A stretch of 28,329 bases of DNA, taken from a virus. The DNA lies in the IMG/VR virus record IMGVR_UViG_3300024327_000758, positions 1-28,329 of that record; one strand, given 5' to 3'. Both the position numbers and the translations under genes were made by a program. Under the pieces are notes generated by a model. That model did not search any database. It was not told the origin of the DNA and worked only from the letters and a program-made list of their open reading frames with translations. Each line of letters starts with the position of its first letter. The stretch's first letter is position 1. Shown here one piece after another: positions 5,257 to 28,329 of the stretch.

Positions 5257-7467
5257 TTACCTCCAGCTTCTTCGTTTTTTACGGCCAAAACGACCACGTT
5301 TGGGAGCATGCTGTACTTCACTTATTGGACGCATACCTTGCTCAGTACCTTGATAGGAGTTGATTCCTTCAAGTAGGGAGAACTCTTTCTCTTCTTTTAT
5401 ACTACGAGAACGACTTGATTTTCTATCATTAGGCAACAAACCTTCTCTAATATACTTTTCCCTTATCATTCTGTCTTCTTCTTCGGATCCACCACCCCGC
5501 ATTATTCGCAACACATTCAGTGCACCTGGATCAGATTGAAGTTTCTTTTGCTCATAAAGCTCTCGAATTTCATCATTCGGAGATCTATAAAGATTCTTTA
5601 TGGCTTCAACTTTATGGAAGGTAGGCATACTTGGAGTCATTTGGTTTCCAGAGTATACTGACTCTTCTAAAACCAACCCACCTAACGCTAGCATGAAAGC
5701 GTCGAGTCTATGATCTCCAACCTTTTCATTCTGCTTTCCGTATACTGGCTTGTTGTTCTGTTTGTTTCTTTTCTCTACGATGTAGTTGAAGAACTGATCT
5801 TTCAAGACAACGTCATCTACTGGAAATTTAAATAATCCGTCCTGAAGAATTCTAACTGCATTCTCAACTAAAAAATGCTTACCAGATTTTTTAATGTCCT
5901 TGTTGGTAATAGGATCTTTAAGCTTTATGTTGGAACTAAAATTAAATGATACTAAACGATCCGCTATTAAAACTGTCTCTGCCTCTTTAGCCGTCTTGTC
6001 TTGTTTGGCCCTAAGAGTATAGGATTGATATTTTATATCTTCTATGATTGTATGGCCGTATCCTTCGTCCGCATAGATATGGTCTGGTTTCCATTTATAA
6101 TTAAGATCGATTAACTCTTTTATCCACCGCCTAGCAGAGAATTCAGAGTGAGGTACGTTTACTGCATCCAATGCGATCCAAATTCTATCGCTTGGAAAAT
6201 AACCAATAACATAGAATTCAGTACCTGCATTTTTATTCCAGTCGATACCTATCGCTATGGTTCTCTCTGTTGCGGACTTTAACCCTAGTTTTTTCTGCAA
6301 ATGATGCGGAGAATAGGCTTCGTCGTATGTATAATCCAACCGAGCGCTGTAAATCCAATCTCTCTTGAACACCCCTTGAAGGTCGTCAATAAAGATTGCC
6401 ATGTACTCCGCCATGAAAGATTCTTGGGTTGAATCACGAAGTATCTCTTCTTTTATGGCTTCCCAATGCGGGATTACTGAACTAGGTAAAAAGTCTTCTC
6501 TAAAATCATCTCGCTTCAAACACCATTCGTGAAACTTACCTTTCTTACCAATTGGTGTAGATGTGGCGATTAAAATTGTATCAGGCGTTGTGGCCAGAAT
6601 AGGATTAATAACTTTATCTAATACTTCTTCTGGAATCATATCCATCTCATCCAAGTAGACGATAGATGCAGATTGACCACGCATAGTACCACCACCGCTG
6701 CCGTCAGATCTCATACCTATTCCAGAAACAAACCCTTGTATAACCGCACCGTTTTTCATTTCCATTTTAAAAGTTGGCGTCTTTATATATAAGCTATCTC
6801 CAGTACCAGAAGTAACTTCTGCTTTTAACTCTATGTTTCTCTTTAATAGTTTCTCCATCTCTTCAAAGAGATTCGTCAGTTGCGCTTGATAAGGCGTAAC
6901 GATCATTATCGCCGGCCCCATATAAACTATGTTCCCTTGCGCATCTCTACCTCTATCTAATTTAAGATTGTATGCGTAATACAATAGTTTTAATGCCATC
7001 GCAAAAGACTTACCTGAGCGACGACCTTCTCTTATTACCATCCTCTTTGAAGTGCATCTTATTTGTTCCTTCTGGTAGCTTCTTAAGAACCATTTATCAT
7101 CCCTATCAGAAAACCCAAACATTAACTCCACCCAAGATGCAGGATCTATTGAAGCCTTTAGTATTCTAGTCGCTTGTTCTTCTGGTATGTTTGTGCTTTT
7201 AGAGATCTCTTTTATTTTTGATGCAGCACCATCTGGAAGCTTTCTTGGTATGTAACTGCACTTTATCCTGTTGGTGCCATACTTCTTTATCTGCCGTATC
7301 TGACAAGTAACACAAGTCTTATGAACATCTGTCTTTAGCGAATACTCCCTCTTAAAATATGTTATTAATTCATCGGGTATTATTGCGGCAGGATCTTGAT
7401 GCTCAATCCCGTACTCGTTAACAGAATAAATATTATCATCTATTAATTGTTTTAATTTAGGATGCAT
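5257..7467 (-). CDS. terL: Terminase large subunit (packaging ATPase-nuclease, 736 aa)
   Basis: This is the DNA-packaging motor and headful/cos nuclease. The ATPase half has a Walker A at residues 147-154 (EGRRSGKS), a Walker B at about 268-274 (SIVYLDE, acidic D273/E274) and a coupling motif near 301-305 (ATSTP). The RNase H-like nuclease half shows the first acidic residue at D409 (IGIDW), the second at D467 (YADEG), and a third cluster D585/D589 (DHRLDA). All expected catalytic positions are present. An N-terminal extension with Cys52, Cys55 and Cys70 may bind a metal. The length is somewhat above the usual 450-650 residues, and a C-terminal basic tail (GRKKRRSW) follows the nuclease. The gene starts 2 bases after the stop of the 369-residue gene. 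The terminase identity is secure. Its fine subfamily is not. Confidence 0.97.
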   Translation of the reverse strand: MHPKLKQLIDDNIYSVNEYGIEHQDPAAIIPDELITYFKREYSLKTDVHKTCVTCQIRQIKKYGTNRIKCSYIPRKLPDGAASKIKEISKSTNIPEEQATRILKASIDPASWVELMFGFSDRDDKWFLRSYQKEQIRCTSKRMVIREGRRSGKSFAMALKLLYYAYNLKLDRGRDAQGNIVYMGPAIMIVTPYQAQLTNLFEEMEKLLKRNIELKAEVTSGTGDSLYIKTPTFKMEMKNGAVIQGFVSGIGMRSDGSGGGTMRGQSASIVYLDEMDMIPEEVLDKVINPILATTPDTILIATSTPIGKKGKFHEWCLKRDDFREDFLPSSVIPHWEAIKEEILRDSTQESFMAEYMAIFIDDLQGVFKRDWIYSARLDYTYDEAYSPHHLQKKLGLKSATERTIAIGIDWNKNAGTEFYVIGYFPSDRIWIALDAVNVPHSEFSARRWIKELIDLNYKWKPDHIYADEGYGHTIIEDIKYQSYTLRAKQDKTAKEAETVLIADRLVSFNFSSNIKLKDPITNKDIKKSGKHFLVENAVRILQDGLFKFPVDDVVLKDQFFNYIVEKRNKQNNKPVYGKQNEKVGDHRLDAFMLALGGLVLEESVYSGNQMTPSMPTFHKVEAIKNLYRSPNDEIRELYEQKKLQSDPGALNVLRIMRGGGSEEEDRMIREKYIREGLLPNDRKSSRSRSIKEEKEFSLLEGINSYQGTEQGMRPISEVQHAPKRGRFGRKKRRSWR

Positions 7468-8581: not shown

Positions 8582-11500
8582 TTACATCCTATTGTGTCCA
8601 ATTGGAGAGTTGAACATATTCTTATTAGCGGAGAGCTGAAGGCTCTCCATCATAACTTGCCTTTTGTATTTTTGCATTTCTGCTAGCTGATTTTCTCTCT
8701 GTTTGTTAACTTTTGCAGCTTCATGTACGTTTCTTGCCGCCAAAGTATCCTTTACCATATGATAGTTGTTTTCTCTTAAAGATCTAGTATTCAATTTATA
8801 CTCGTTCTTTTTGGAGCCCCTACTCTTTATCATGCTGCCTAGATCACTTTTAATTTGATCCAAACTTGAAAGAATTGAATTGGTGTTATATCCGAAAGAT
8901 TGTAAATCCAATTCATGTGCAGAAGAAAACTTTTTATCTGGCCTAAAGATACTAGTGTTATTCTTCGATTGAGAAGCCTTAAATCTTTCAGCGGTTTGAG
9001 TAATATCTCCCATGATTTGATCAGTTACGCCACCAGCCCTATCTGCTTGATTCATTAAAGAGTAGATAGACATCAAGTTTGCATTTCTTGATACCTTAGA
9101 GATGTTCGCTAAAGTGTTGAATGTAACCGTCTCTCCACTTGCTTTAGAAATCTCCTTATAGGCTTGGAAATATCCTGTGTTCCACATTCCCCTTTTGGAT
9201 TCTTGTGCTGATTCTTGTGCATCTTCAAAAGCTTTTTGATTATATATCGGCGGCTTGCCTTTGGACTTGTATGGCAAGTAGGCAGCAGCACCACGTTTAA
9301 CTAGCTCTAAATTTAAATTCTTTCCATCCACATAGATCATACCTACTTGTCGACCATATGTAGTGTCGCCTTGTCGACCAACAAGTCTTACATCTTTTGC
9401 TTTCGCAATTAATTCGCTAGCTATCGCCTTGGCCTTTTCTGCAAAAGGCTGAGCACGTCTATCTTGGTGAGCAATCTCCGGAGAGTCGATTCCTGCTAAA
9501 CGTATAGACATTGAATCTTGACGACCAGTGCCCATAAAACTCGATAGCGGTGAATTAATATTTCCTTTTCTTTTTATTGAGACCGTATCCGCGTCCTCAA
9601 CATTTATCTCGAATCTGCTTTTATCGAACTCATATTCAATAAGATTCTTGCCTCGAACTCCAGTCCCATACCTCTCCTGGTCAATTGGTTTCGCACCACT
9701 AAAGATGATATTCCGACTCTCTTTAGATGTACCCATCTGACGTCTAAAAGCAGTGGATAGGAACCTCTTAAAGAAGAATCCAATATCACCCTGCTCTGAG
9801 AAATGTCTAACACCAAATTTTTGCTGTATGTACTTGTGTCTCTCCCTTCTTAATTTATGATCTTCTAATACTCCTTGTGTATAAGCTGGACCTTGATAGG
9901 GCGAACCAAAATCTGTAAAAGCTTTGTTTAGCATTGAGGCTAAACCAGTTTGTGGCAAACCTTCCAGTCTGCCATATTTTGCCTTAACACTATTTATGTA
10001 AGCTTCCTGATCGTTACCATAGAACTGGCTTTGTGCTTCTAAAAACTGCTCGTAGTTTGGAGCTAAAAGCTCCCCTTGCTCCTCTTTATGAGCAGTCCTG
10101 GTAGATAGGACTGCTAATGCTCCGGTTAGTATTCCATATTTACCTAAATGACTCTTGCCTATTTCTCTCAATCCTTTTGACAAAGTAGGTGACTCTGCTC
10201 TTTGAGCAGTTCTACTAACGCTCTCCGCAGCGCTACTGACCGGTGGTACAACTCTAGGTGTCGGTGGGACGCTGGGAGGTGGTGGCGGAATAGGGCCTGG
10301 TGGCTTCACCCCAGGGGTGGGTCGTGGTGGTGTGGCTGGACTTGGCGGTGTAGCTGGACCTGGTGGCTTTGCTCCAGCACCTGGAGGTGATGGGGGCACA
10401 ACCCTAGGAGTTGGAACTATGCTTCTTCTAGAGCCCCTCGGCTTCAGTGGAGGGGTGGCTGGAGTGATAGATGTTCTTTCTATATCTCTACTTCCTATAA
10501 ACATCTGTATGTTGTCCAAAAATTGCTTGGTTACTTGTCCATCTCCAAGTCGCCTTGCAAACATATCTACTACTTTGTCTGAAGCTTCAGCATCTTTTAA
10601 AGCAACTTCCCGCATGCTTCCCTTTGTGGCTTCCACTACTGTACCTGAAGCGTCAAAGAAACTACTATATTTTGTTCTCGCCTCTACAAGTGCTTGAGTC
10701 TTGTCGACATGCTTATACTCATCCAAGTTCTCAAGATGCTTAAGTACATCATCAACACTTGTAAGATGAACTTGCTTACTCTTTGGGCCTACCTGGACTT
10801 TGCTCTTCTCAGTAATGTCGCCAAGTTTCTTAACTTGCTCTACAACTCTATATCCCGGCTTCTGCTGTCTTGTGACTAAAGATTTATTCTCAGCCATCTC
10901 CACCATGCTCTTACCTATACGTTGTCGAAATCCCAACTCATCTAATCCTGCCGAGACCTCCCCGCCACTTAATTTAGCTTGTTGATTAAAATAGTTCGCC
11001 AAACTTCCATAGGCCATGTGTCGAAAGTAAGCGCCCTTACCCTCGGATGCTTGCCTAAATAATTCCTTACCTTCTGCACCACCTAAGTCCACAAGTCGCT
11101 TAGCCTCTAATTGCTCCATTGACTCGGAGAATACTCTCGCCTCTGTAACGCTAGTGTCACCTAGCGCCATGTGAGACTCTGCTTCTTTCAAAGATTTAAT
11201 AGCATCATCCATAGATAGCTGTCGACCTTCTGTTTCAGCGAGTCGCATCTGCTCTGTGAATCCATATAAGCGGCCTTGAACCTCCATTGATAACGAAGTC
11301 GGAGCCTTCTCGTCTATAATCCCCTGATTTATTAATTGAGACTGTTGTGACTTAACCAAGTCCAAGATGTCTCGTACGTCGCCTTCACCGGTATGCTTTA
11401 ATACTGCTTCATAAAGCCCAGAGTAATCTTTACTCTTTAGTGCTTGAGCTTTAATCTTGTTGTACGCCAGGTTAGTAGAATAGAATGGATCACCAGATGT

Positions 11501-12766
11501 AGCAGACACACCTTCTATCACCCCATAAAAGGGGTTCTTAGTTAGTAGCTCTTTCTTCCCTGCTTTGACTCTGTCTATATTTAAAGTATCCAACTCCTTC
11601 TCATATCTGCCGTATTGAAATCCTTTGTGAAACTTATCTCTATCTAAAGGTGCCAATCCAGTACCTATAGTTCCACGATGTGCATTTAGGGCTTCAAGTG
11701 ATTCTTCTGCTAAGTCATTTATTTGGCCACCAAATTGTTTCGCCTCAAAAGAGGCATTAGCAATCCAAGTTACTTTCCCTTTGAGTGCGCTAGCTAAATC
11801 TCCTGTCATTAAATCTTTTATTGATGAAGTGTGCTTCCAGGTTAAACCACCTGTAAATCTTTCACTAATATCGCTAAGATCTCTACCGCTCGCCTTACTG
11901 ATCATCTCTACGAGCTCGTTAGTATTTCCGACACCACCACTAGAGATTCTTTCGAATACTCGTCGCTTCTCTATACTCTCAGGAGTTAGTTTACCTGTCG
12001 CCCTGTCAGTACCAATTTTAGCAGTCTCCAACTTAGCTTCATCAGCCATTAACAACGCTTGGAACCTATCCGTCTTGATTAAGTAGTCCTCAACACCAGA
12101 GACTACATCTTTTTTGCCTGCTTCAGGAACAACACCTTCAGCCAAGTCGAATACTGATATCTTGCCTGTAGTGTACTCATTAGCAAGATTCTTTACGGTG
12201 TCACCCATAGTAGTAACATCTTCGCCAGCCTTAATCATATCTATTAAAGTGCTGGCAAACTTACCATCCTTGTGACTTTTAACATCATACCTTCTAGAGG
12301 CTAATCTGCGCCCTCTACGAGATAGTCCCTGCTCACCACCTTCTTTATCAGTAACTATCAGTTCAGGCGTGGGCCTGAACATAAGACCCTTCTTTTCGGT
12401 AGGATCATACAAAGCTATTTGATGAATAATATCTGGGCCTCTAAGGCCTGTAGTTTCTATGTCCAGGAAGACAGACTTCTTAATTATTTCATCTCTGGAT
12501 AGACTTACATTTGGCCCAACATTCTTTATATTATATTTTGGAGCACCCGTAGAGTCTGTACCGCTACGTTCCGAAGCATGAATCGAGATTATTTCAGCCT
12601 TCTTACCATAGACTGCTTTTACCTTCTGAGCTATATCTGCTTCTACTTGCTTTGGAAGTAGGGCGAAGCCGTATTCTTCCTTCTTGCCATTGACAAGTAC
12701 TTCAACAAAGACATATTGAGGACTACCACTAGTGTTGATATAGGTGTGATACTTATTCTTAATCAT
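8582..12766 (-). CDS. Dual-nuclease giant protein: DEDDh exonuclease plus SNase-like domain (1394 aa)
   Basis: The N-terminal part carries a DEDDh 3'-5' exonuclease signature. Exo I is at residues 101-107 (LDIETTG, D102/E104). Exo II is N337-A-S-F-E341, with Glu where Asp is usual. Exo III is H458-x4-D463 followed by VRDILDL. A helical region (about 480-760) and a long Pro-rich linker (about 766-845) come next, then a short hydrophobic helix (about 876-888). A staphylococcal nuclease-like domain follows at about 1050-1200, with metal-site D1058/D1060, catalytic R1089 and E1097 (RLAGIDSPE) and R1139 (TYGR), so the catalytic set is intact. The exonuclease could trim or degrade DNA and the SNase cuts DNA or RNA. 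Placement beside the terminase and membrane-like virion proteins suggests a packaged, injected enzyme, or one acting on packaged ends. This role is inferred. The start overlaps the upstream gene by 8 bases. Confidence 0.9.
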   Translation of the reverse strand: MIKNKYHTYINTSGSPQYVFVEVLVNGKKEEYGFALLPKQVEADIAQKVKAVYGKKAEIISIHASERSGTDSTGAPKYNIKNVGPNVSLSRDEIIKKSVFLDIETTGLRGPDIIHQIALYDPTEKKGLMFRPTPELIVTDKEGGEQGLSRRGRRLASRRYDVKSHKDGKFASTLIDMIKAGEDVTTMGDTVKNLANEYTTGKISVFDLAEGVVPEAGKKDVVSGVEDYLIKTDRFQALLMADEAKLETAKIGTDRATGKLTPESIEKRRVFERISSGGVGNTNELVEMISKASGRDLSDISERFTGGLTWKHTSSIKDLMTGDLASALKGKVTWIANASFEAKQFGGQINDLAEESLEALNAHRGTIGTGLAPLDRDKFHKGFQYGRYEKELDTLNIDRVKAGKKELLTKNPFYGVIEGVSATSGDPFYSTNLAYNKIKAQALKSKDYSGLYEAVLKHTGEGDVRDILDLVKSQQSQLINQGIIDEKAPTSLSMEVQGRLYGFTEQMRLAETEGRQLSMDDAIKSLKEAESHMALGDTSVTEARVFSESMEQLEAKRLVDLGGAEGKELFRQASEGKGAYFRHMAYGSLANYFNQQAKLSGGEVSAGLDELGFRQRIGKSMVEMAENKSLVTRQQKPGYRVVEQVKKLGDITEKSKVQVGPKSKQVHLTSVDDVLKHLENLDEYKHVDKTQALVEARTKYSSFFDASGTVVEATKGSMREVALKDAEASDKVVDMFARRLGDGQVTKQFLDNIQMFIGSRDIERTSITPATPPLKPRGSRRSIVPTPRVVPPSPPGAGAKPPGPATPPSPATPPRPTPGVKPPGPIPPPPPSVPPTPRVVPPVSSAAESVSRTAQRAESPTLSKGLREIGKSHLGKYGILTGALAVLSTRTAHKEEQGELLAPNYEQFLEAQSQFYGNDQEAYINSVKAKYGRLEGLPQTGLASMLNKAFTDFGSPYQGPAYTQGVLEDHKLRRERHKYIQQKFGVRHFSEQGDIGFFFKRFLSTAFRRQMGTSKESRNIIFSGAKPIDQERYGTGVRGKNLIEYEFDKSRFEINVEDADTVSIKRKGNINSPLSSFMGTGRQDSMSIRLAGIDSPEIAHQDRRAQPFAEKAKAIASELIAKAKDVRLVGRQGDTTYGRQVGMIYVDGKNLNLELVKRGAAAYLPYKSKGKPPIYNQKAFEDAQESAQESKRGMWNTGYFQAYKEISKASGETVTFNTLANISKVSRNANLMSIYSLMNQADRAGGVTDQIMGDITQTAERFKASQSKNNTSIFRPDKKFSSAHELDLQSFGYNTNSILSSLDQIKSDLGSMIKSRGSKKNEYKLNTRSLRENNYHMVKDTLAARNVHEAAKVNKQRENQLAEMQKYKRQVMMESLQLSANKNMFNSPIGHNRM
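10232..10471 (-). other. Pro-rich interdomain linker segment of the dual-nuclease gene
   Basis: About 80 codons encode almost only Pro, Ala, Gly, Val, Thr and Ser with scattered Arg and Lys, in imperfect PPTPRVVPP and ATPP units. It separates the exonuclease-helical half from the SNase half. Its base composition (G-rich on the plus strand) departs sharply from the flanking gene and creates spurious antisense open frames. Confidence 0.8.
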
Positions 12767-13575: not shown

Positions 13576-14004
13576 ATGTCTTCTACAGTATACCTACCAA
13601 AAACTGAACTATACCCATACTCAAGACAATGGAACCTATCAAACTTATGGAGGCTTAGTGAAGATTTGCCTGTAACAGAGATGTCGGTGTCTGAGCTATG
13701 GGACAATATGTACTCAAAAGTATGGTGCTGGCAAAATGAAGACGAAGTAATCAACAATGAATTCTTTCTACATCACATGAAGCGTGTCTTAGATGCAGAC
13801 TTAAACTACTCAATAATACTCTCTGAAGAAAACTATATATTTGATGGAGTGCATAGGTTGATGAAGTGTAAGTACTTAGAGATAGAGACAGTAAGTTGCG
13901 TGCAATTTACAAAAGACCCACTAAGTAACTCTGACCAATCAGAGTTAGAATTTTTAAAAAAACTACAAAAGTCTAGGAAGGCTTTTTCTGAACGTACCAC
14001 ATAA
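13576..14004 (+). CDS. ParB/Srx-like small protein (142 aa)
   Basis: The central motif D90-G-V-H-R94, followed by a helix and a beta strand (IETVSCVQF), matches the ParB/sulfiredoxin-fold signature in which DGxHR contacts a nucleotide phosphate. In phages such domains occur in DNA-modifying or kinase-like enzymes as well as in DNA-binding partition proteins. With two glycosyltransferases downstream, a role in making or decorating a modified base is possible. That is inference. The protein is shorter than full ParB and has no visible DNA-binding helix-turn-helix. AAAGGA precedes the ATG by 5 bases. Confidence 0.65.
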   Translation: MSSTVYLPKTELYPYSRQWNLSNLWRLSEDLPVTEMSVSELWDNMYSKVWCWQNEDEVINNEFFLHHMKRVLDADLNYSIILSEENYIFDGVHRLMKCKYLEIETVSCVQFTKDPLSNSDQSELEFLKKLQKSRKAFSERTT

Positions 14005-18133: not shown

Positions 18134-21100
18134 ATGCGTAACGCCATTATCTCATTCTTCTTCGGCCTGCTGTGGACTACTGTATGCTATTCAGTGTATG
18201 TAGCCCCACAAGCAGCGTCTGTGTCCGTCGTGGATGCAGCGCCAACTTATGTAGCAGAGGCTCCAAAGTCTCTTGCTACCAACCGCACCACACCAGCAAC
18301 CGTTAAGATTGACCATCTTCGCAGTACTACCATTAACAGTGGAAGCTCTACCCCTAGTCAGAGTACCTTCCCCATCAACCACAGCGCATTACGTCCTAAT
18401 AATTGTCGTATTGTGCGCCGTAGAAAGTTGAAGTCACGAAAAGGTAATCACCTGATTGGTGATGTCTTTATCAAGTTCATTTTCAGTTACCACCGTGTAA
18501 CTTACATGAGCGACAACTGGTTATGTTATGAAGAGACGCCTTACACAGAGGCAGACTTCAAAGTGAGCGACCCAGCTAAGGCCCGCAAGAAAGCAAAGAA
18601 ATCCTGGCGGCAGCTAAAGGGTGAGGCAACACGTCTTTACCAGAAAGCTGCGGTTTTACGTTTGCGCAATCCAGAATATCCGCCTGCAATAGCTCGTGCG
18701 GTGTTTGCCAAAGCACAAAAACTTCATCACCGCGCAAATGTTATGAAGAAGGCACTCAAAGAGTCTCAACCAACGGCGCGTCAACAGCGTCTATTCAGAC
18801 GAGAGCTCTTCAGGGCACAAGCAAAAACTTGCCAGCAGTTCATTAAAGCTGAGATGGTGAGTAACGTTGATGAAGCCAATGAGCTGATTCAAAAGGTTCT
18901 CAGCGGTGATACTAATGGAACTGCATTGAGACTATTACAAAAGAATCAATTAGGCCGTATTTACATAAAGCATGGCCTACTGCAAGTAGCGGCAAAAGAG
19001 GAAAAGGTTGAGAGACCTACGAATCCACGAGTCGTACACCACAAAGTAAAGCAAGAAGAAACACCTGTAAGAGTGTGGACGCCATTGATGCGTGCTGCTA
19101 TCGTTCTTGTCGCACCACTTATGTTAGGCATGAGTGCAGACGCAGGTACCCTAGTAGAAGTTGCTTACGCGGGTGCAACCACAGCGACAATACTGAAGAT
19201 GACCTTGCAGAACATCTTGAACACTCCAGCACGTAAGCGTGAAGCGGCGCAAGACGGGTACAATCGCTATGCTGAGCAGTCTATCAAGTCTGCAAAGAGT
19301 AGTGAGTGGGATGTCTTCTCGCTTATGCGCTTTAGCCGTAGTGGCAAGGGTGGAGTGAATCCCAACGGTAAAGCTCACTTAACCGACAAACAAAAGGGCA
19401 GATGTGTTCGTATCGTCCAAGACAGCATTGGTGGAGCTTACTGTCCGAAGGTAAAGTCATTCGCCAAGATGCTCGGCATTGAGCTCGGCGTTGATAATTG
19501 TCTTCGCTACGAGATCGATGATCAAATGGATGAGGTACTAAAAGCTGACGTAGTAGAGATACTTATGGCAGCTCGCTTTATTATTCTGTGTGATGGTTTT
19601 GCTGTCCACGAGAGTATTGCTCGTCCATTCATTGAGTACGGTGAGGCGATGTTTGAGAACGCAGTAGGTGTAAGATCTTACTTCCGCTCTTTAGTCACTA
19701 CACCGTCTTTATACGTGGTCAACGAAGATCTACCCATCTTCTTGGCTGACCTAGCCACTTTAATGGGTTGGGTTGAAAACGATGGTGGTGCAGTGCACAC
19801 GAACCGCCTTTCGATCTCGATGCAGTTTAGAGGAATTGCTAAGGTACTCGAGAAGAAATACCATGTTCTCAGTAAGGGCATTTCTACAGGTGCCAAGGTG
19901 ATCGCTGACATCACTGACGGTATTGATAAGCCTAGTTTCGTTAACTACGAGGGCGATGAGCCAGGCCACGTCAAGGGTGAGGTCCGCCTAAGCAAAAAGG
20001 TAGACGAATGCATTCGTGTTGCAGTCGAAGAAGAGTTCAATGCTCTCCACGCTGTGAATGCTGCAACAGAACAACAACTGTGTCTCGTCCATGGCATTGG
20101 GATTGAGACCGCCAAGAAGATCATCAAAGCACGAGTAGATGCAGGGGGACGATTTACAGACATGGACGCTTTCTACGGTGTGTCTAAACGTCTCGATCCT
20201 AATAACCCCGATGCCCTTAAAGTATTACGCTGGACCTTTGGTCACAAAGAGCGTGTATATAGTGTGGGCTTGTTCCTTGATAAATCTACATTGAAAGGGG
20301 CAGATAAAAATGCCTGGGATTTTGATAAGCTCAACCTTTTCGGCATCAATGGGCAAAATGTTGATTTCTGGGCTATCGCTATCGATCAAATAGGTGGTGA
20401 GATTTCATTGGGATGGCAAGTTGTTCAGCTATTAGATGCCGACTTCATCGGTGGATTGTTTCAGAACCTTGATGGTAGCTATGGGATTGCAGCTGAGAAA
20501 TTAGCAAAGCAAATTGACAATGCTATTGAAGCAGAGCACCCGCTGGTAAAGAAACTCATTAATGCTATCGATGATGAAGGTGGTGAATACGAAGACCTTA
20601 TGCCAGCTGTGAAGGCCATCTCTGTCTTGCAGGGCCTTGGCAAGACCGCGTCCAAGCGCATCAGCAATGGTCTCGGTGCAAAGGCGGGCTCCTACTATGT
20701 CCAGATGATCGACATGGGTGGCGACTGGGTCATCATCAAAACACCCAAAGCTAAGGACGGTAAAGGCTTTAAGCGCTGGGCTGCATGTTTCTTCGGCCGC
20801 ACGCCGAACCAGGGACATGAAACTGTGCGTGCTCCCATGGCACTTTCACCATCTTATGTTGGCGCATTCTTGAGGGATTACCTCAAAGATGGACTTGAAG
20901 GAGTTGAGAAACATGGCAAACAAGCAGAGCAGTTTTGCATGAAACTGAATATTAATTGCGGTCATGACAATGATGCAACTCGTTTACGCTGTCGTGCGAT
21001 CTTGACTATGTTACCGGGTGTTATTGATGGCATTGCTCTCGTTGACAGCACTCTTCAACAAAAAGTGTGTGGAGATAACGACGGTGATAGAAATATGATC

Positions 21101-24100
21101 AGCTTCGATAAGATGCTGGTCAGCATCGCCAAGCATATCACCCGTAAACATCCGGCTACGTTCCCTGCGCGTGAGCAGTCAAAGAAATTTGTACTGAACA
21201 CGTTCGATGACGTGGTCTTGGAGAAGGGTGGTTGGCTTCGTAGCTTTGATGAATATATGAACACCGGAGACTCTTCAGAGTTACTTCTAGTCTCCAAGTT
21301 CCTTTCTGCCCCTGGTGGGACTCCAGGACAGGGGAACGTCGGTGGTGTGACGCAATGTGCTGCTGCACCCATGTTGTTCTGCGAATGGCACTGGGTTAAG
21401 AAAGGTGGCAAAGACGTTTATGAGCCTGTCAATCCAGCTGCTCGTAAGTTAGTCAACTATCTCTATCTGTGTCAGCAGATTGCAATTGATAGGCAGAAAT
21501 ATTACTACCTAGCACCGTCACTTCTATTCTGGTTCCTTGCTGACTTGACTGTTGGTGAGGCAGTCATTAAGCAGCTGAAAGCAGGTGGCCATGTAGACTC
21601 TAAGTGGCTTCACAGTCATTACCCTATTCAGGGTGCTGCTGATATGTCGTTCGAAGAATACCAACAGGCTTGGGAGAATGGTACTCTACCAGAGATCTCA
21701 GAAGTAATACCCGGTATGGGTAAGGGCGCTCTTGGTGGAGAGTCTGTCGCTCCAATGATGTATAATAACGGTCCGCTTTATGTGCACACGGCATGGCAGG
21801 TTAATGCCATCAACCTCGGCTTCGGTTACTTTGACGAGAAAATGATGACTGAGCTTTCTGAGTTCTTCGATAAAGAGACCGCTCAGACTGCTAATTGGGG
21901 AGCCATTGTCAAACACCTTGGTCTCACCATCTCAGCTGAAAAACTGGAAGAAATGTGGGTTTGGCCTAGCTACATCACAGGGTGGGTTGGACTCAATTTC
22001 CGGAGCAATCAAGATTTAGCTCCAGAAACATTCCAATCAGCCCGAATCCACGCAAATAATGTGTGGTTAGAAAAGATGGCAAAAGCTGGACTGAATGCAG
22101 ATCCTGCAGTTACATTGTCTGAAAGTCCTCTTGCTGAGGTTCTGAAAGAAGAAGCCGGTGATTACGCTATTGAAATGAAACCGTGGGCTACTCGTTTGCT
22201 TGCGACTACTATATACCGTTCATATGTCGGTGAAAGTTCAAACGCGGTTGAAGCGATGAGTCAAAGCGCTAGAACCCAAACCGATCATCACGCATCAGGT
22301 GCGGACAAGTTGTCGTTCCTTCGTGCAGCGTTGACATCACGTGACATGAACGTAGAAGTCGCAGATATGTCCGTGATGGATAAGATCAAGAACCTTCGTT
22401 TCATCTGGGCTAAAGCTCTTCAGAATGACAAAATGTCAGATGAGCGACGCTATCAAGTGCTCTGTGCAATGATGCACTTCGGTATCTGTGTAATTAAAGA
22501 TTGTCTTGATGACATAGAAAACGATAAGACCAGTGTTATCGCCACAAATGTGATCTGGGCACTTGAGGATCATACCATTGCTGACATTGCCAAGCTAACT
22601 ACAAGCGAGGCGTGGAGAGCATGGCGCAATGAGAACGATGCAGACCGCAGTACTGCAGTAGCAAAAGAGCGGCGTGAAGCGATGGACAGTGTTCGCAAGT
22701 TGATGAATAAAGATGGATTTTACCATTGGATTTCAGAGCAAAACCTTAGCACCTTAAAGGCTGAGGATATCGCTACTTGGCTCATCATGGACGGCGAAGA
22801 AAGCCACAGTAAGATCATCGACTTCATCGGTAGCGATTTCTTTGGTGCTATTGGAGAAGGTTGGGATCGTCAAGAGCTCAAAGAATCTCGCAATAGTGTT
22901 GAAGAAGAACTTAACGGTGCTTTGCAGCATTTGAAGAAAATTCCCGTTGATGACAATTTCATGGATGGGGTTGAAACATATGCTCGAGATCTGATTCAAT
23001 GGATCCGAGACGATGAGCTAGAAGCTCAAAGTGGTGAGAAGACTGACGAGGCTCAAATGGCGTGGTATTCTTTGAATGCACGTGAATATGAGCGTGAGGT
23101 TGCGTCAATCACTCGACCAATCACTTCGATGATTCGTCTTGTGAAGCATCAGATGAGAATCCTCGTTCATAATGTTAACAATGGTGTTAACTTCGAGGAC
23201 GAGGAAGCAGCTTTCTGGCCTGCAATCGAAGGAGCCCTCTTCGGCACTCATAAGGAGTTGAATGAGGAAACTGGAGAATGGGAAGAAGTAACTCACGTAG
23301 AAAGCCGCATCGTTTACGAATTACCAGAGCAACATCTCGCAGAAATGAACCTAGCTGCACTTGAGCAAGGTTATGATGTGGAGATTTTGGTGAATATGAT
23401 AAATGGTGCTCGCAACTTCTACGCAGATGATGAGGGTGAGATTGAGTATCCATCAGAGCCTGAAGAGTATTATCTTACACGAAAAGGGTACATCCATTTG
23501 AGCTCTATTATGACGCAAATGGTTCTTGGAACTAAAAGTCGTGAAGATGTATTGGTATGGCTACTTGCCCAATTTAAAGGCGGTGTAGGTCATGTTACTA
23601 CTAGTCAACACCTCACTATGGCGTATGGTCCTGCTGAAGGGCGTGACCACTTCTGGTTCGTAACTTTGGAGCAGTATCCTCAGTTCCACAACGACCTTGT
23701 CGTTTGTGAAGTGCAAGCAGCGTTCGAAGAGTGCTACCCAGAACGTGTGGCTATCGAGTACTTCCATGACGACGATGAAGAGACCCTTGATGCGTTGGAA
23801 TGCTTTGGTGATCCTCAAAATCACAGTGAAGATGATGCGGAGTACTACGAGAATTACTATCGTGAACGATTCGAAGTAGAGCTTTACCTACCACCACTAT
23901 TTGGTGGCCGTTCTAACTGGGATGAGTTGTACGATGGTAAGTACAGTAAGTTCTATGACCAGCAGCTCGTTATGACCCCTTATAAGATGCTACGTACGTA
24001 TGCATTCATGATGGAGGGTAAAGATGTGTCTCAAATGAGCCTTCCTACTGAAGTGCGTGATTTCCAGAATGACGTCTTTGGCTACACTGTTGGTGACAGT

Positions 24101-24661
24101 AAAAAGCAAGATAAGTCACAGCAAAGTAGAGAAGCTGACAAACGTACTGGACGTAAGCCTAAACACACAGCTCTAAAGAACAACATGACTAAGAAGTCTT
24201 GTGCTACTTGGACATGGGCTGGAGTTGAGAAACCAATCACTTCAGATCTTGATGTTGATTTTAACGGTTCTGACAACTTGCAGGAGAGTAACAATTTCTG
24301 TGATATCAGTGTCCGTGGTTACGATAACCATCAGTATGATGAGTGTTGGCGTGGTGCTTACAGCTTGGTGCGTTTTACACCAAGTTTATTGTGGAGCTTC
24401 GCTAATGTTATGGAGAGCGGCGACTTCCAAGAAATCAATGCACGATCTATTGCCAAGGTTGGTACGTCCTCTGTTCGTCGCTACTGTGTGGGTTTCCGTA
24501 AGGCTAACTTCACTCAAATGGTCAAGGGCGTCACAGTAAAGTCTGTAGAGATGAATTCGACAGTGGTACGCGCCCTCTTTGATATCCTTGCGAATGAAGA
24601 AGAGTTGGAAATCGGTATGGATGCCTTAGGTGGTCCTGACCGTCCATTCACTGTGGATTGA
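18134..24661 (+). CDS. Giant protein, candidate single-chain two-barrel RNA polymerase (2175 aa)
   Basis: The key signature is D981-N-D983-G-D985, followed by RNM-I-S-F-D992. This has the same spacing as the D-x-D-G-D...W/F-D catalytic loop of QDE-1-type RNA polymerases. Upstream, P961-GVIDGIAL aligns in spacing with the P-VLIEGKAI strand of cellular beta-prime. R889-T-P891 could be the substrate-contacting RxP. Downstream lie a Gly-rich segment (about 1061-1074) like the bridge region, and Q1114-x3-I-D119-type QQIAIDRQK (1114-1122), resembling the I-D-x-x-K of YonO/RDR-like enzymes. The length is close to crAss-like virion polymerase gp66 (about 2180). Also visible are a hydrophobic N-terminus (5-30), another hydrophobic stretch (about 318-338), and two helix-hairpin-helix-like motifs (about 646-667 and 828-850). 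I could not locate the beta-like barrel lysines. The start is set by AAAGGGACG. The RNA polymerase call rests on motif reading only. Confidence 0.65.
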   Translation: MRNAIISFFFGLLWTTVCYSVYVAPQAASVSVVDAAPTYVAEAPKSLATNRTTPATVKIDHLRSTTINSGSSTPSQSTFPINHSALRPNNCRIVRRRKLKSRKGNHLIGDVFIKFIFSYHRVTYMSDNWLCYEETPYTEADFKVSDPAKARKKAKKSWRQLKGEATRLYQKAAVLRLRNPEYPPAIARAVFAKAQKLHHRANVMKKALKESQPTARQQRLFRRELFRAQAKTCQQFIKAEMVSNVDEANELIQKVLSGDTNGTALRLLQKNQLGRIYIKHGLLQVAAKEEKVERPTNPRVVHHKVKQEETPVRVWTPLMRAAIVLVAPLMLGMSADAGTLVEVAYAGATTATILKMTLQNILNTPARKREAAQDGYNRYAEQSIKSAKSSEWDVFSLMRFSRSGKGGVNPNGKAHLTDKQKGRCVRIVQDSIGGAYCPKVKSFAKMLGIELGVDNCLRYEIDDQMDEVLKADVVEILMAARFIILCDGFAVHESIARPFIEYGEAMFENAVGVRSYFRSLVTTPSLYVVNEDLPIFLADLATLMGWVENDGGAVHTNRLSISMQFRGIAKVLEKKYHVLSKGISTGAKVIADITDGIDKPSFVNYEGDEPGHVKGEVRLSKKVDECIRVAVEEEFNALHAVNAATEQQLCLVHGIGIETAKKIIKARVDAGGRFTDMDAFYGVSKRLDPNNPDALKVLRWTFGHKERVYSVGLFLDKSTLKGADKNAWDFDKLNLFGINGQNVDFWAIAIDQIGGEISLGWQVVQLLDADFIGGLFQNLDGSYGIAAEKLAKQIDNAIEAEHPLVKKLINAIDDEGGEYEDLMPAVKAISVLQGLGKTASKRISNGLGAKAGSYYVQMIDMGGDWVIIKTPKAKDGKGFKRWAACFFGRTPNQGHETVRAPMALSPSYVGAFLRDYLKDGLEGVEKHGKQAEQFCMKLNINCGHDNDATRLRCRAILTMLPGVIDGIALVDSTLQQKVCGDNDGDRNMISFDKMLVSIAKHITRKHPATFPAREQSKKFVLNTFDDVVLEKGGWLRSFDEYMNTGDSSELLLVSKFLSAPGGTPGQGNVGGVTQCAAAPMLFCEWHWVKKGGKDVYEPVNPAARKLVNYLYLCQQIAIDRQKYYYLAPSLLFWFLADLTVGEAVIKQLKAGGHVDSKWLHSHYPIQGAADMSFEEYQQAWENGTLPEISEVIPGMGKGALGGESVAPMMYNNGPLYVHTAWQVNAINLGFGYFDEKMMTELSEFFDKETAQTANWGAIVKHLGLTISAEKLEEMWVWPSYITGWVGLNFRSNQDLAPETFQSARIHANNVWLEKMAKAGLNADPAVTLSESPLAEVLKEEAGDYAIEMKPWATRLLATTIYRSYVGESSNAVEAMSQSARTQTDHHASGADKLSFLRAALTSRDMNVEVADMSVMDKIKNLRFIWAKALQNDKMSDERRYQVLCAMMHFGICVIKDCLDDIENDKTSVIATNVIWALEDHTIADIAKLTTSEAWRAWRNENDADRSTAVAKERREAMDSVRKLMNKDGFYHWISEQNLSTLKAEDIATWLIMDGEESHSKIIDFIGSDFFGAIGEGWDRQELKESRNSVEEELNGALQHLKKIPVDDNFMDGVETYARDLIQWIRDDELEAQSGEKTDEAQMAWYSLNAREYEREVASITRPITSMIRLVKHQMRILVHNVNNGVNFEDEEAAFWPAIEGALFGTHKELNEETGEWEEVTHVESRIVYELPEQHLAEMNLAALEQGYDVEILVNMINGARNFYADDEGEIEYPSEPEEYYLTRKGYIHLSSIMTQMVLGTKSREDVLVWLLAQFKGGVGHVTTSQHLTMAYGPAEGRDHFWFVTLEQYPQFHNDLVVCEVQAAFEECYPERVAIEYFHDDDEETLDALECFGDPQNHSEDDAEYYENYYRERFEVELYLPPLFGGRSNWDELYDGKYSKFYDQQLVMTPYKMLRTYAFMMEGKDVSQMSLPTEVRDFQNDVFGYTVGDSKKQDKSQQSREADKRTGRKPKHTALKNNMTKKSCATWTWAGVEKPITSDLDVDFNGSDNLQESNNFCDISVRGYDNHQYDECWRGAYSLVRFTPSLLWSFANVMESGDFQEINARSIAKVGTSSVRRYCVGFRKANFTQMVKGVTVKSVEMNSTVVRALFDILANEEELEIGMDALGGPDRPFTVD

Positions 24662-26049: not shown

Positions 26050-26249
26050 TTTTAGCGAAAGCTGCTCTTCGGAGCAGTTAGTAGTAATCTCGTAACACTT
26101 AGGCGTGACGAGACGAGACGTAAAGTCTCAAGCCATATACTTATATATTAAGGCTTAAAACTAATATATATGATTTAGACTTTTATCATAAAAAAGTCGG
26201 CAAAATCTTAGTTGATGCAAACGGACGTAATGTCGCCAGTTAAATCATT
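26050..26249 (+). other. Spacer between the last protein gene and the structured RNA
   Basis: It opens with a CTGCTC-TTCG-GAGCAG hairpin (26062-26077) without a T run, then becomes very AT-rich. GACTTTT (26178-26184) can pair with AAAAGTC (26192-26198). The AT-rich part (26130-26180) could hold the RNA's promoter, for example a TATATT-like box near 26140, but no convincing -35 or copy of the AATTTA box is present. Confidence 0.35.
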
Positions 26250-28115
26250 GAGTAATGTCGTGCCGGATCCCTATGTGGACGAGGTGCTTGATGAGTCTAC
26301 GAGTGTTGAGATACACTTGCAGCATCCATTCTAAATGGATGTCTCTCCGGAGAACGAAACATTTGGATGTAGAAATACATCAGCGCTTGGGGAAGCGCAA
26401 TAGAAATATCCAACCAAAGCACCAACAGAAAGGGAAAAAATGTTGTAGTGTTTTTGATAGGTGGGACTCGAGGCCTCTTCACTGAGGTAATGATATCCAC
26501 CGTCAGCCGAAATGCTGACCGCTTAGCACCCTAAGGCTAAGTAGACTTGAGAAGTTTTTGGGTTTCATCACCTAACTGGTATCCTCTACCAGTAAATAAA
26601 ACAGAGGTTTTGGAGAATAGTTTAGGGCTATTCTAGGGTTTGCAGCTATATTGCCGCCCACCATTTAAAATAAGTAGTGAATACCCGCTGGAGAGATTAA
26701 GCATCTCCAGTCTGCCTTACACAGTCTGATTAGTGTATGAGGTAGGAAGGGGAGTGACTCTTAAAGTCAAAAGTGCCAACCGAACAGATAGGTTGGTTCC
26801 GAGTTCTCATGCTTGGAGGTAAGTCATAGTTAATGGGTGCCATCTCTCAGGATCGAGTGCGATGGTAGAAGCGGAGTTAGCAGTAGAGCGATCTTACGGT
26901 GTGCGCACACCAAACTGCTATAAAGACTCTGTGGAGGAAAGTGTAGTTGAGATGAAAGTCTTGATGAACAACCTCGTTAAAACAATGTAGGCATGACGTC
27001 CTGAATACTCTTCTGAGTGAATGGGCCTGATGTGTTGCTTTCGGGCAACGAATCATGACGAGTTACCAATCTCATTAAAATTGGTTCCATGAGCTACGAG
27101 AATGGCAACATGGGTAATTAGCTAGGGTGTGCAAGCCGAAGCTGCGGAGAAGGAACTCCGTCAAATCAAACGTCCCGGTATTCATATACAATTGACGCCC
27201 GCAACCTGATTGTGGAAATCGAAAGGTATGATAAGAACCGGGGCTATTAGATACGTAACAACGTACTAGCTCATCATTCGGATGAGCAGGTAGTCAACAA
27301 CTTCTCAGGGACCATATGGTGTGTGCACGCACCTCCCTACCGTTATTTCCTAGGAATAACGACAATAAGGTATAGCTTCTAAGGAATATATAAGAAGCTG
27401 AACGGATTTAACTCAAAGCGGTTTGAGTTTCGTCTGAAAAAAGATCCCCATCATGTAAGATCCTACCAGGTCTAAAGGATGGGGGGACGAAGTAGTCAAG
27501 GGTTTAAAAACCCCAGTCCCAGCTACTTCAAACAAGGTGTGTTGGAGGGGTGGAAGAACTGCAAGTATACTTGTGGATCTTCCACCTCAGAAGGCATATC
27601 TTGGGCTCAAGCTGTAATACAGCCTAAGCCACCCCGTCGCCAACGGGGTCAATAAATCGCATAAGGTTCGCTTTATGTTATTCATTGACCTTCTTGGTCA
27701 TTAATCATGCAGTAGGACCTCCCTTGACAAGGAGGGCGATCTGCACCAGCGACAGAAGTCAACTGTCCCTGGTTGAGTGGTGGAAAGCTCCCTTTTTATA
27801 GCTGAACAATTCCACTCTGTGATAGGGTCCTCCCGAGAAAAGGAGCATCTTTGGACCGACCACCCCATATTATATTGTGGGATCTGGAAGGCGACAAGGT
27901 GAAGACCCGAACGAGCGCCACGATCAAAGTGGCCTCACCTATCAAGCCCCGCATCGAAGTGATGTGGGCCGGAGTAGAGTTCCCCAGTTAGGGTAGAGCT
28001 CCTCCGATGAGAAATGTGCGATTAGAGCGCGCAGAGTGGGGTAAGGTCCAGCTGATTTAGGGCCCAGGGAGAAAGTCAAAATGTGCGTTTAAAGCACGTG
28101 AGAACTGTTTTCCTA
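26250..28115 (+). ncRNA. Giant, highly structured non-coding RNA region
   Basis: About 1.9 kb has no plausible coding sequence but is covered with stable hairpins. Examples are 26323-26341 (8 bp), 26383-26398, 26575-26593, 26688-26710, 27269-27287, 27341-27361, 27410-27429 (8 bp), 27549-27586 (9 bp), 27632-27648, 27948-27968 and 28081-28099. Several are nested: 26879-26919 encloses GGTGTGCGCACACC, 27307-27338 encloses another, and 27897-27940 encloses GCCAC/GTGGC. Others are 27174-27242 and 27489-27529. Strand is set by wobble pairs: in the stems at 27318-27333, 27948-27968, 28015-28033 and 28081-28099 a T-G pair is fine in plus-strand RNA but would be a C-A mismatch on the other strand. The style resembles ornate phage RNAs such as GOLLD and ROOL. 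The length exceeds those, so it may be several RNAs in tandem. Ends are approximate, and no terminator or promoter is certain. Confidence 0.7.
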
Positions 28116-28266
28116 GGGGGTAGAGACTTATTATTTTGGCCAAAAATGACGAGATGTGACAATTTACTTGTCTTTCCTTGTCATAATGAGGTTAAAAGTA
28201 GCTATAAATACCTAATATATAAGGGTTTATAGTTATAAAGATAGAAAGTCGGGGTGCACCTAGTCA
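28116..28266. other. AT-rich spacer after the RNA region
   Basis: It contains TGACAA/TTGTCA at roughly 28157-28186 and a 7-bp stem CTATAAA (28202-28208) with TTTATAG (28226-28232). A GGGGGTAG motif lies at its left edge. I see no gene. It may be the 3' domain of the RNA or the start of another locus. Confidence 0.35.
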
Positions 28267-28321
28267 AACCCTAGTCCAGCCCTACTCCAACCCTACCTCA
28301 GCCCTAGTCCAACCCTACCTC
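28267..28321. repeat. 11-bp CCCTA-containing tandem repeat
   Basis: There are five consecutive 11-base units of the type A-A/G-CCCTA-G/C-T/C-C/T-C, alternating so that a 22-base higher-order unit appears (28278-28299 and 28300-28321 differ at one base). On the minus strand each unit carries TAGGG. The array reaches nearly to the window end, so it may continue. Confidence 0.85.
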
Positions 28322-28329
28322 AAAGCTAG

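Follow-up and report, generated by a model that had tools for sequence, protein, structure and literature searches.

The plus strand of a 28,329-base IMG/VR record, analysed as a whole and called the window below, probably encodes a single giant phage RNA with a motif resembling a self-cutting ribozyme, ends that may pair and an apparently exchangeable interior. Comparison of three phages shows a region that is evidently non-coding, structured and co-located in all of them, with covarying ends and an apparently exchanged interior. It would be one structured non-coding RNA gene that, together with its two relatives, founds a family not yet catalogued.

Genomic context and homologous loci

The window encodes a T4-type terminase large subunit (5257-7467, minus strand) for which the best match in a named phage shows about 28% identity, and the RNA-bearing lineage is a tailed dsDNA phage. 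Two genes from the terminase, a gene at 8582-12766 encodes a protein of 1394 aa that has a staphylococcal-nuclease domain close to the C-terminus. The left end of the record consists of a 21-base tandem repeat (1-94), and the right end of an imperfect 11-base tandem repeat resembling CCCTAGTCCAA (28258-28328).

The RNA region sits downstream of two genes whose products have 2175 and 156 aa. Searches with the two proteins yielded two near-identical contigs (L003/L004), and a 19-base pattern taken from the conserved 5′ element of the RNA led to a third phage (L008). The L008 contig (genome G001, 161,781 bases) has a direct repeat at both ends and therefore looks complete; its terminase is 87% identical to that of the window. 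Both phages carry a homologue of the RNA at the equivalent position (~1.4 kb in L003/L004 and ~1.35 kb in L008), and the comparison covers three phages, for two of which only partial contigs are available. Viral sequence searches with the RNA or its neighbour proteins found no relatives beyond these, the viral search with the terminase added one further 4.3-kb contig, and distant blastn of phage and plasmid collections found nothing relevant. Eight stretches from a pattern scan of a genome collection were judged to be chance, the remainder of the element being absent from them.

An earlier note on this DNA had placed the RNA at 26250-28115, which was nearly correct: by homology, the unit extends from 26172 to about 28125. 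The length of ~1.9 kb is not constant across the class, the distance between the shared ends being 1976 nt in the window, 1406 nt in L003 and 1349 nt in L008. Common to all three are the 5′ element, the hammerhead-like region after it and the 3′ domain. The first ~90 nt are near letter-identical except for the strands of helix P_up, and the last ~200 nt are also shared. The features of the locus are as follows.

18134-24661, plus strand: 2175-aa protein with an HHH motif and a DxDGD motif, the syntenic partner of the RNA
26106-26119, plus strand: flanking repeat TGACGAGACGAGAC, found again at 28147-28160; the RNA is bordered by repeats of this type in each of the three phages
26172-26252, plus strand: conserved 5′ element, near-identical in three phages
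26178-26198, plus strand: A/U-rich hairpin of the 5′ element, invariant across three phages
26199 onwards, plus strand: GGC of a candidate pseudoknot with GCC in the invariant block 26221-26240, invariant across three phages
26207-26212/26247-26252, plus strand: helix P_up, double changes between phages
26254-26363, plus strand: hammerhead-like ribozyme motif of type III layout, with equivalent layout and position in L003 and L008
26254-26258/26359-26363, plus strand: stem III, one double-change position
26259/26260, plus strand: cleavage site after C26259, predicted from the hammerhead layout
26260-26287, plus strand: stem I, two double-change positions
26288-26294, plus strand: hammerhead core UUGAUGA (consensus CUGANGA)
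26295-26355, plus strand: stem II region
26322-26342, plus strand: hairpin b, part of the stem II region, two double-change positions versus the relatives
26343-26355, plus strand: 5′ strand of the proposed long-range helix Y, pairing with 28107-28119 and lying just 5′ of GAAA
26356-26359, plus strand: GAAA
26364-27940, plus strand: variable interior with many predicted hairpins and strong plus-strand folding
27948-27955/27961-27968, plus strand: helix P3a of the 3′ domain
27970-27974/28002-28006, plus strand: helix P3b of the 3′ domain
27977-27982/27996-28001, plus strand: helix P3c of the 3′ domain
28012-28031, plus strand: additional hairpin, a direct repeat (D2) that copies the P3d region at 85% identity and has no counterpart in the relatives
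28079-28098, plus strand: hairpin P3d (stem 28083-28086/28094-28097), loop GNUUAAA conserved
28107-28119, plus strand: conserved 3′ end GUUUUCCUAGGGG, the 3′ strand of helix Y, conserved in three phages

In each of the three phages the large gene is next to the RNA. In the L008 genome its protein is only 30-35% identical, and the 156-aa protein has no recognisable copy. The string VCGDNDGDRNM, which contains DxDGD, is invariant in the three copies of the large protein, and DxDGD is the pattern of multi-subunit RNA polymerases. Profile searches of the 2175-aa protein (Pfam, PDB-sequence) found helix-hairpin-helix only, and the AlphaFold model of its core (pLDDT 32.5) lent a polymerase no support either. 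The earlier note had the RNA adjoining a candidate RNA polymerase: the adjacency stands, as synteny in all three phages, and the polymerase identity has the DxDGD motif as its sole basis. A candidate single-chain RNA polymerase is a motif-level guess.

Shortly downstream of the RNA lies TATAAATACCTAATATATAAGG (28203-28224), which is conserved among the three phages and whose core pattern has a single occurrence in the 161.8 kb of G001. It is a possible promoter for the downstream gene block, similar to the T4 late TATAAATA.

Genome G001 has two tRNA-like elements (L043:13459-13572 and ~13850-13960, both on the minus strand) between normal tRNAs (Met, Arg), with 7-bp acceptor-like stems, T-arms and an overlong middle. 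Rfam gave only a weak tRNA-Sec match for the first one; possibly they are intron-bearing or degenerate tRNAs. DNA polymerase III alpha is divided among separate ORFs (L042:3306-4925 and L042:5953-7323, both on the minus strand), with the break around position 100 of the NTPase domain. Past the finger domain there is a match to intein splicing (E 1.5e-4) that falls short of the curated cut-off, and an interruption of this phage replicase by inteins or an intron is possible.

Non-coding character and base pairing

The claim that the region lacks coding capacity was borne out: 26172-28125 contains no credible ORF, the longest (76 aa, 26255-26485) having no family match above the cut-off. Sigma-70 promoters and terminators within the RNA region showed no excess over chance. 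Folding energies were scored as z against dinucleotide-preserving shuffles. In 200-nt windows the mean z was −3.0 (plus strand) and −2.2 (minus strand) in the RNA region, compared with −0.8 and −0.3 in the neighbouring coding region used as a control. The two parts of the RNA behaved differently, with z of −4.0 on both strands at 26250-27100 and of −11.3 (plus) versus −6.1 (minus) at 27101-28100. The plus-strand preference mainly arises in the 3′ half.

The extensive structure claimed in the earlier note is confirmed by these z-scores and more strongly by the comparison of pairing in the three phages, which appears to be the weightier evidence. Ten helices were drawn by hand with the sequences already in view, a bias that the slide control leaves in place; three of about 180 pair cells were non-canonical, and 16 positions were double changes keeping the pairing. 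The table of these ten helices leaves out the bulged A of window helix X (GUCU/AGAC), an invariant helix that is bulged in the window and absent from the joined-end model prediction and was dropped. The collection of homologues and the test of pairing that had been suggested for this region gave two homologues and, for nine helices placed by coordinate, 175 canonical cells out of 178 (98%) with 16 compensatory double-change positions among 65 aligned ones, counts that rest on three distinct sequences, two of them with a common interior block. When the 3′ strands were slid by 1-3 bases, 40-49% of cells were canonical and zero or one position was a double change. Hand choice probably inflates the canonical fraction and would not easily produce the double changes.

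A dyad-rich DNA element, such as an origin or a packaging region, would fit the repeats TGACGAGAC on both sides and the strong folding of the first half on the minus strand as well. As an explanation of the whole region it is highly improbable, in view of the plus-strand excess in the 3′ half, the G-U-consistent changes and compensatory pairs, and a hammerhead layout found on the plus strand only. The invariant hairpin at 26178-26198, taken by itself, could alternatively be a DNA element.

The hammerhead-like motif and the proposed pairing of the ends

Right after the 5′ element, each copy contains the string N4-UC / stem I / YUGAUGA-G ... C-GAAA-N4′. L003 and L008 have the canonical core CUGAUGA and agree exactly with the type III hammerhead core. 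The core of the window carries C3->U (UUGAUGA), because of which the activity of its copy is doubtful. The layout arose in none of 4000 shuffles of L003, none of 4000 of L008 and two of 4000 of the window, and a scan of both strands of the window, G002 and the first 40 kb of G001 found no second occurrence. Covariation is seen in stem III (AAUG/CAUU against AGUG/CACU), and stems I and III show double changes at two and one positions, respectively, without a broken pair across the three sequences. Rfam Hammerhead_3 aligns the same bases of L003 with 17.8 bits (per-genome E 0.0095), under the gathering cut-off of 48.5 bits; the long stem II insert is expected to depress this score.

The motif resembles the type III hammerhead (RF00008) in the UH cleavage dinucleotide, the closed stems I and II, the open stem III and, in two of the three phage copies, the CUGANGA/GAAA core. 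It differs in the ~60-nt multi-hairpin stem II, the C3->U of the window, the sub-cut-off Rfam score and the fusion to an RNA of kilobase size, the 3′ end of which is able to pair with stem II. Stem II proper would have two pairs only (GU/AC), which close several hairpins. Active natural hammerheads with a stem II of one or two pairs occur, and intergenic hammerheads are known in phages (PMC3088659). The layout supports a 5′ end of the RNA that would lie at G26260.

It is conceivable that the giant RNA is real and that the motif is non-catalytic, a relic or a structural three-way junction, with a promoter in the 5′ element setting the 5′ end. The core mismatch of the window and the score under the Rfam cut-off are consistent with this. 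So are the folding results: the hammerhead fold lies 6-8 kcal/mol above the best local fold, in an energy model that ignores the tertiary stability of the core, and the L003/L008 core CUGAUGAG is able to pair with CUCAUCA shortly downstream and be sequestered. The canonical core in both relatives, the pairing of stems I and III kept through double changes and the natural hammerheads with a stem II of 1-2 bp (PMC3088659) speak for catalysis, and a non-catalytic motif, a substantial possibility, is not what we expect on balance.

In the 3′ domain, helices P3a-P3c (27948-28006) have seven compensatory double-change positions across the three sequences and no broken pair, and the stem of P3d covaries from GUGC/GCAC to GCGC/GCGC. 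The conserved 3′ end is suggested to pair, as helix Y, with a strand of the hammerhead domain. In L008 all 13 pairs can form (16 contiguous; matched by 2 of 2000 shuffles), and in L003, 12 of 13 (25 of 2000). The window has 11 of 13, one pair having changed in a compensatory way and two neighbouring positions being mismatched, and taken alone is not significant in the contiguous-run shuffle test. When both ends were folded as one short molecule, helix Y was present in the window (probability 0.82, 7-bp core) and in L008 (~0.74) and absent in L003; thermodynamic folding at full length did not form it (near-zero probability). Both strands contain self-complementary stretches, UCUCCGGAGA at 26344-26353 and CCUAGG at 28111-28116, at which kissing or dimerisation could take place.

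It had been proposed earlier that the region might hold two or three adjacent RNAs. Independent elements, namely a 5′ ribozyme or leader, an interior RNA and a 3′ element, would explain why the 5′ and 3′ blocks are conserved and the interiors differ, the interior having been swapped separately, and why global folding does not join the ends. Such an arrangement seems unlikely: both homologues keep the 5′ element and the 3′ domain around a variable interior, the blocks always occur together in constant order and orientation, the proposed helix Y links the ends in all three phages with a compensatory change in the window, and no terminator above chance lies between the blocks. Since all three phages share the 5′ element and the 3′ domain, a single RNA whose ends are conserved and whose interior varies is most likely.

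The apparently exchanged interior and the probable place of the RNA among giant phage RNAs

The interior of the window has no sequence similarity to the interiors of the relatives. L003 and L008 share an interior block of 419 nt with three differences (99.3% identity), whereas the other DNA shared between them is mostly 65-79% identical, with short stretches up to 92%; for this reason, the block was probably exchanged as a cassette. Two of the differences are the partners of one compensatory pair (C-G -> U-A), and the third preserves pairing (G-U/G-C). The interior is probably a recently exchanged cassette under selection for base pairing. Outside the block, RNAalifold of the whole L003/L008 pair was unreliable, owing to the unreliable alignment there. 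T-arm-like hairpins within L003 and L008 were not recognised as tRNA by Rfam, and tRNA identity is not claimed for them.

The Rfam scan proposed in the earlier note found no family in the window at the gathering threshold. With cmscan at E<=10, the window region, L003 and L008 gave no relevant family except the weak Hammerhead_3 in L003; GOLLD, ROOL, OLE, group I/II introns and rRNA were all without a match. The suggestion that this may be a new class is thereby strengthened, the Rfam-wide search having given no known giant-RNA family. Matches to mir-674 in the window region and to lncRNA/snoRNA in L008 at relaxed E-values were considered chance. Direct searches of G000-G002 with GOLLD (RF02032) found nothing, nor did the direct search with ROOL (RF03087), run without a positive control; HOLDH (RF02997) gave one chance-level match, in an unrelated part of G001.

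GOLLD and ROOL form RNA-only cages and are located near tRNA genes (PMC12286853). A tRNA lies 300 nt downstream of the RNA in L003; in the L008 genome the nearest one, tRNA-Lys, is ~7.6 kb away, and the window contig ends soon after the RNA. Like GOLLD, the new RNA is a giant phage-encoded structured RNA without a known protein-coding role; it may also share the tRNA association (close in L003), and its conserved-end design can be likened to the one conserved end domain and less conserved remainder of GOLLD. Unlike GOLLD (~0.8 kb), it measures 1.35-2.0 kb, lacks a covariance-model match, has a 5′ hammerhead-like motif, is conserved at both ends and apparently exchanges interior cassettes. With ROOL, which is often near tRNA genes, it shares the character of a large many-helix phage RNA; size and end motifs differ, and no model match was found. 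HOLDH (~400 nt) is likewise a large structured RNA candidate, to which there is no significant match.

That the RNA is a divergent representative of a giant RNA family already described, or else a self-splicing intron, would be in keeping with the size, the phage context, the tRNA downstream in L003 and the T-arm-like hairpins, which recall GOLLD/ROOL (PMC12286853). The cmscan at E<=10 without an intron, GOLLD, ROOL, OLE or HOLDH match, together with the outcome of the direct searches, leaves this very little probability. The best reading is an uncatalogued family within the giant phage RNAs, analogous to GOLLD/ROOL without sequence kinship.

In the reading preferred here, a single RNA, the transcript would pass through the conserved 5′ element into the hammerhead-type motif, which would cut between C26259 and G26260 in the relatives and perhaps weakly in the window. 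The released RNA would be ~1.86 kb long in the window and ~1.3 kb in the relatives. Its conserved 3′ end would fold back onto the stem-II strand and hold the ends together, and the large interior between them would consist of exchangeable helical cassettes. By analogy with GOLLD/ROOL, its role is most likely structural in lytic growth, as an RNA-only assembly or a scaffold or sponge. A bolder proposal, which we consider a long shot, is that the far 3′ end organises or locks stem II, coupling cutting to completion of the transcript, with the interior as a swap-in cassette between phages. If true, the RNA assemblies would differ in content and have a constant framework in common.

To our knowledge, no more than a handful of classes of giant phage RNA have been described, and no function has been assigned to any of them. 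Another class, of up to twice the length and with a ribozyme-like front end and a recombining interior, would show repeated origin of such RNAs in phages, and this RNA would bring a 5′ end that is defined and an interior that can be swapped to the probing of giant-RNA function.
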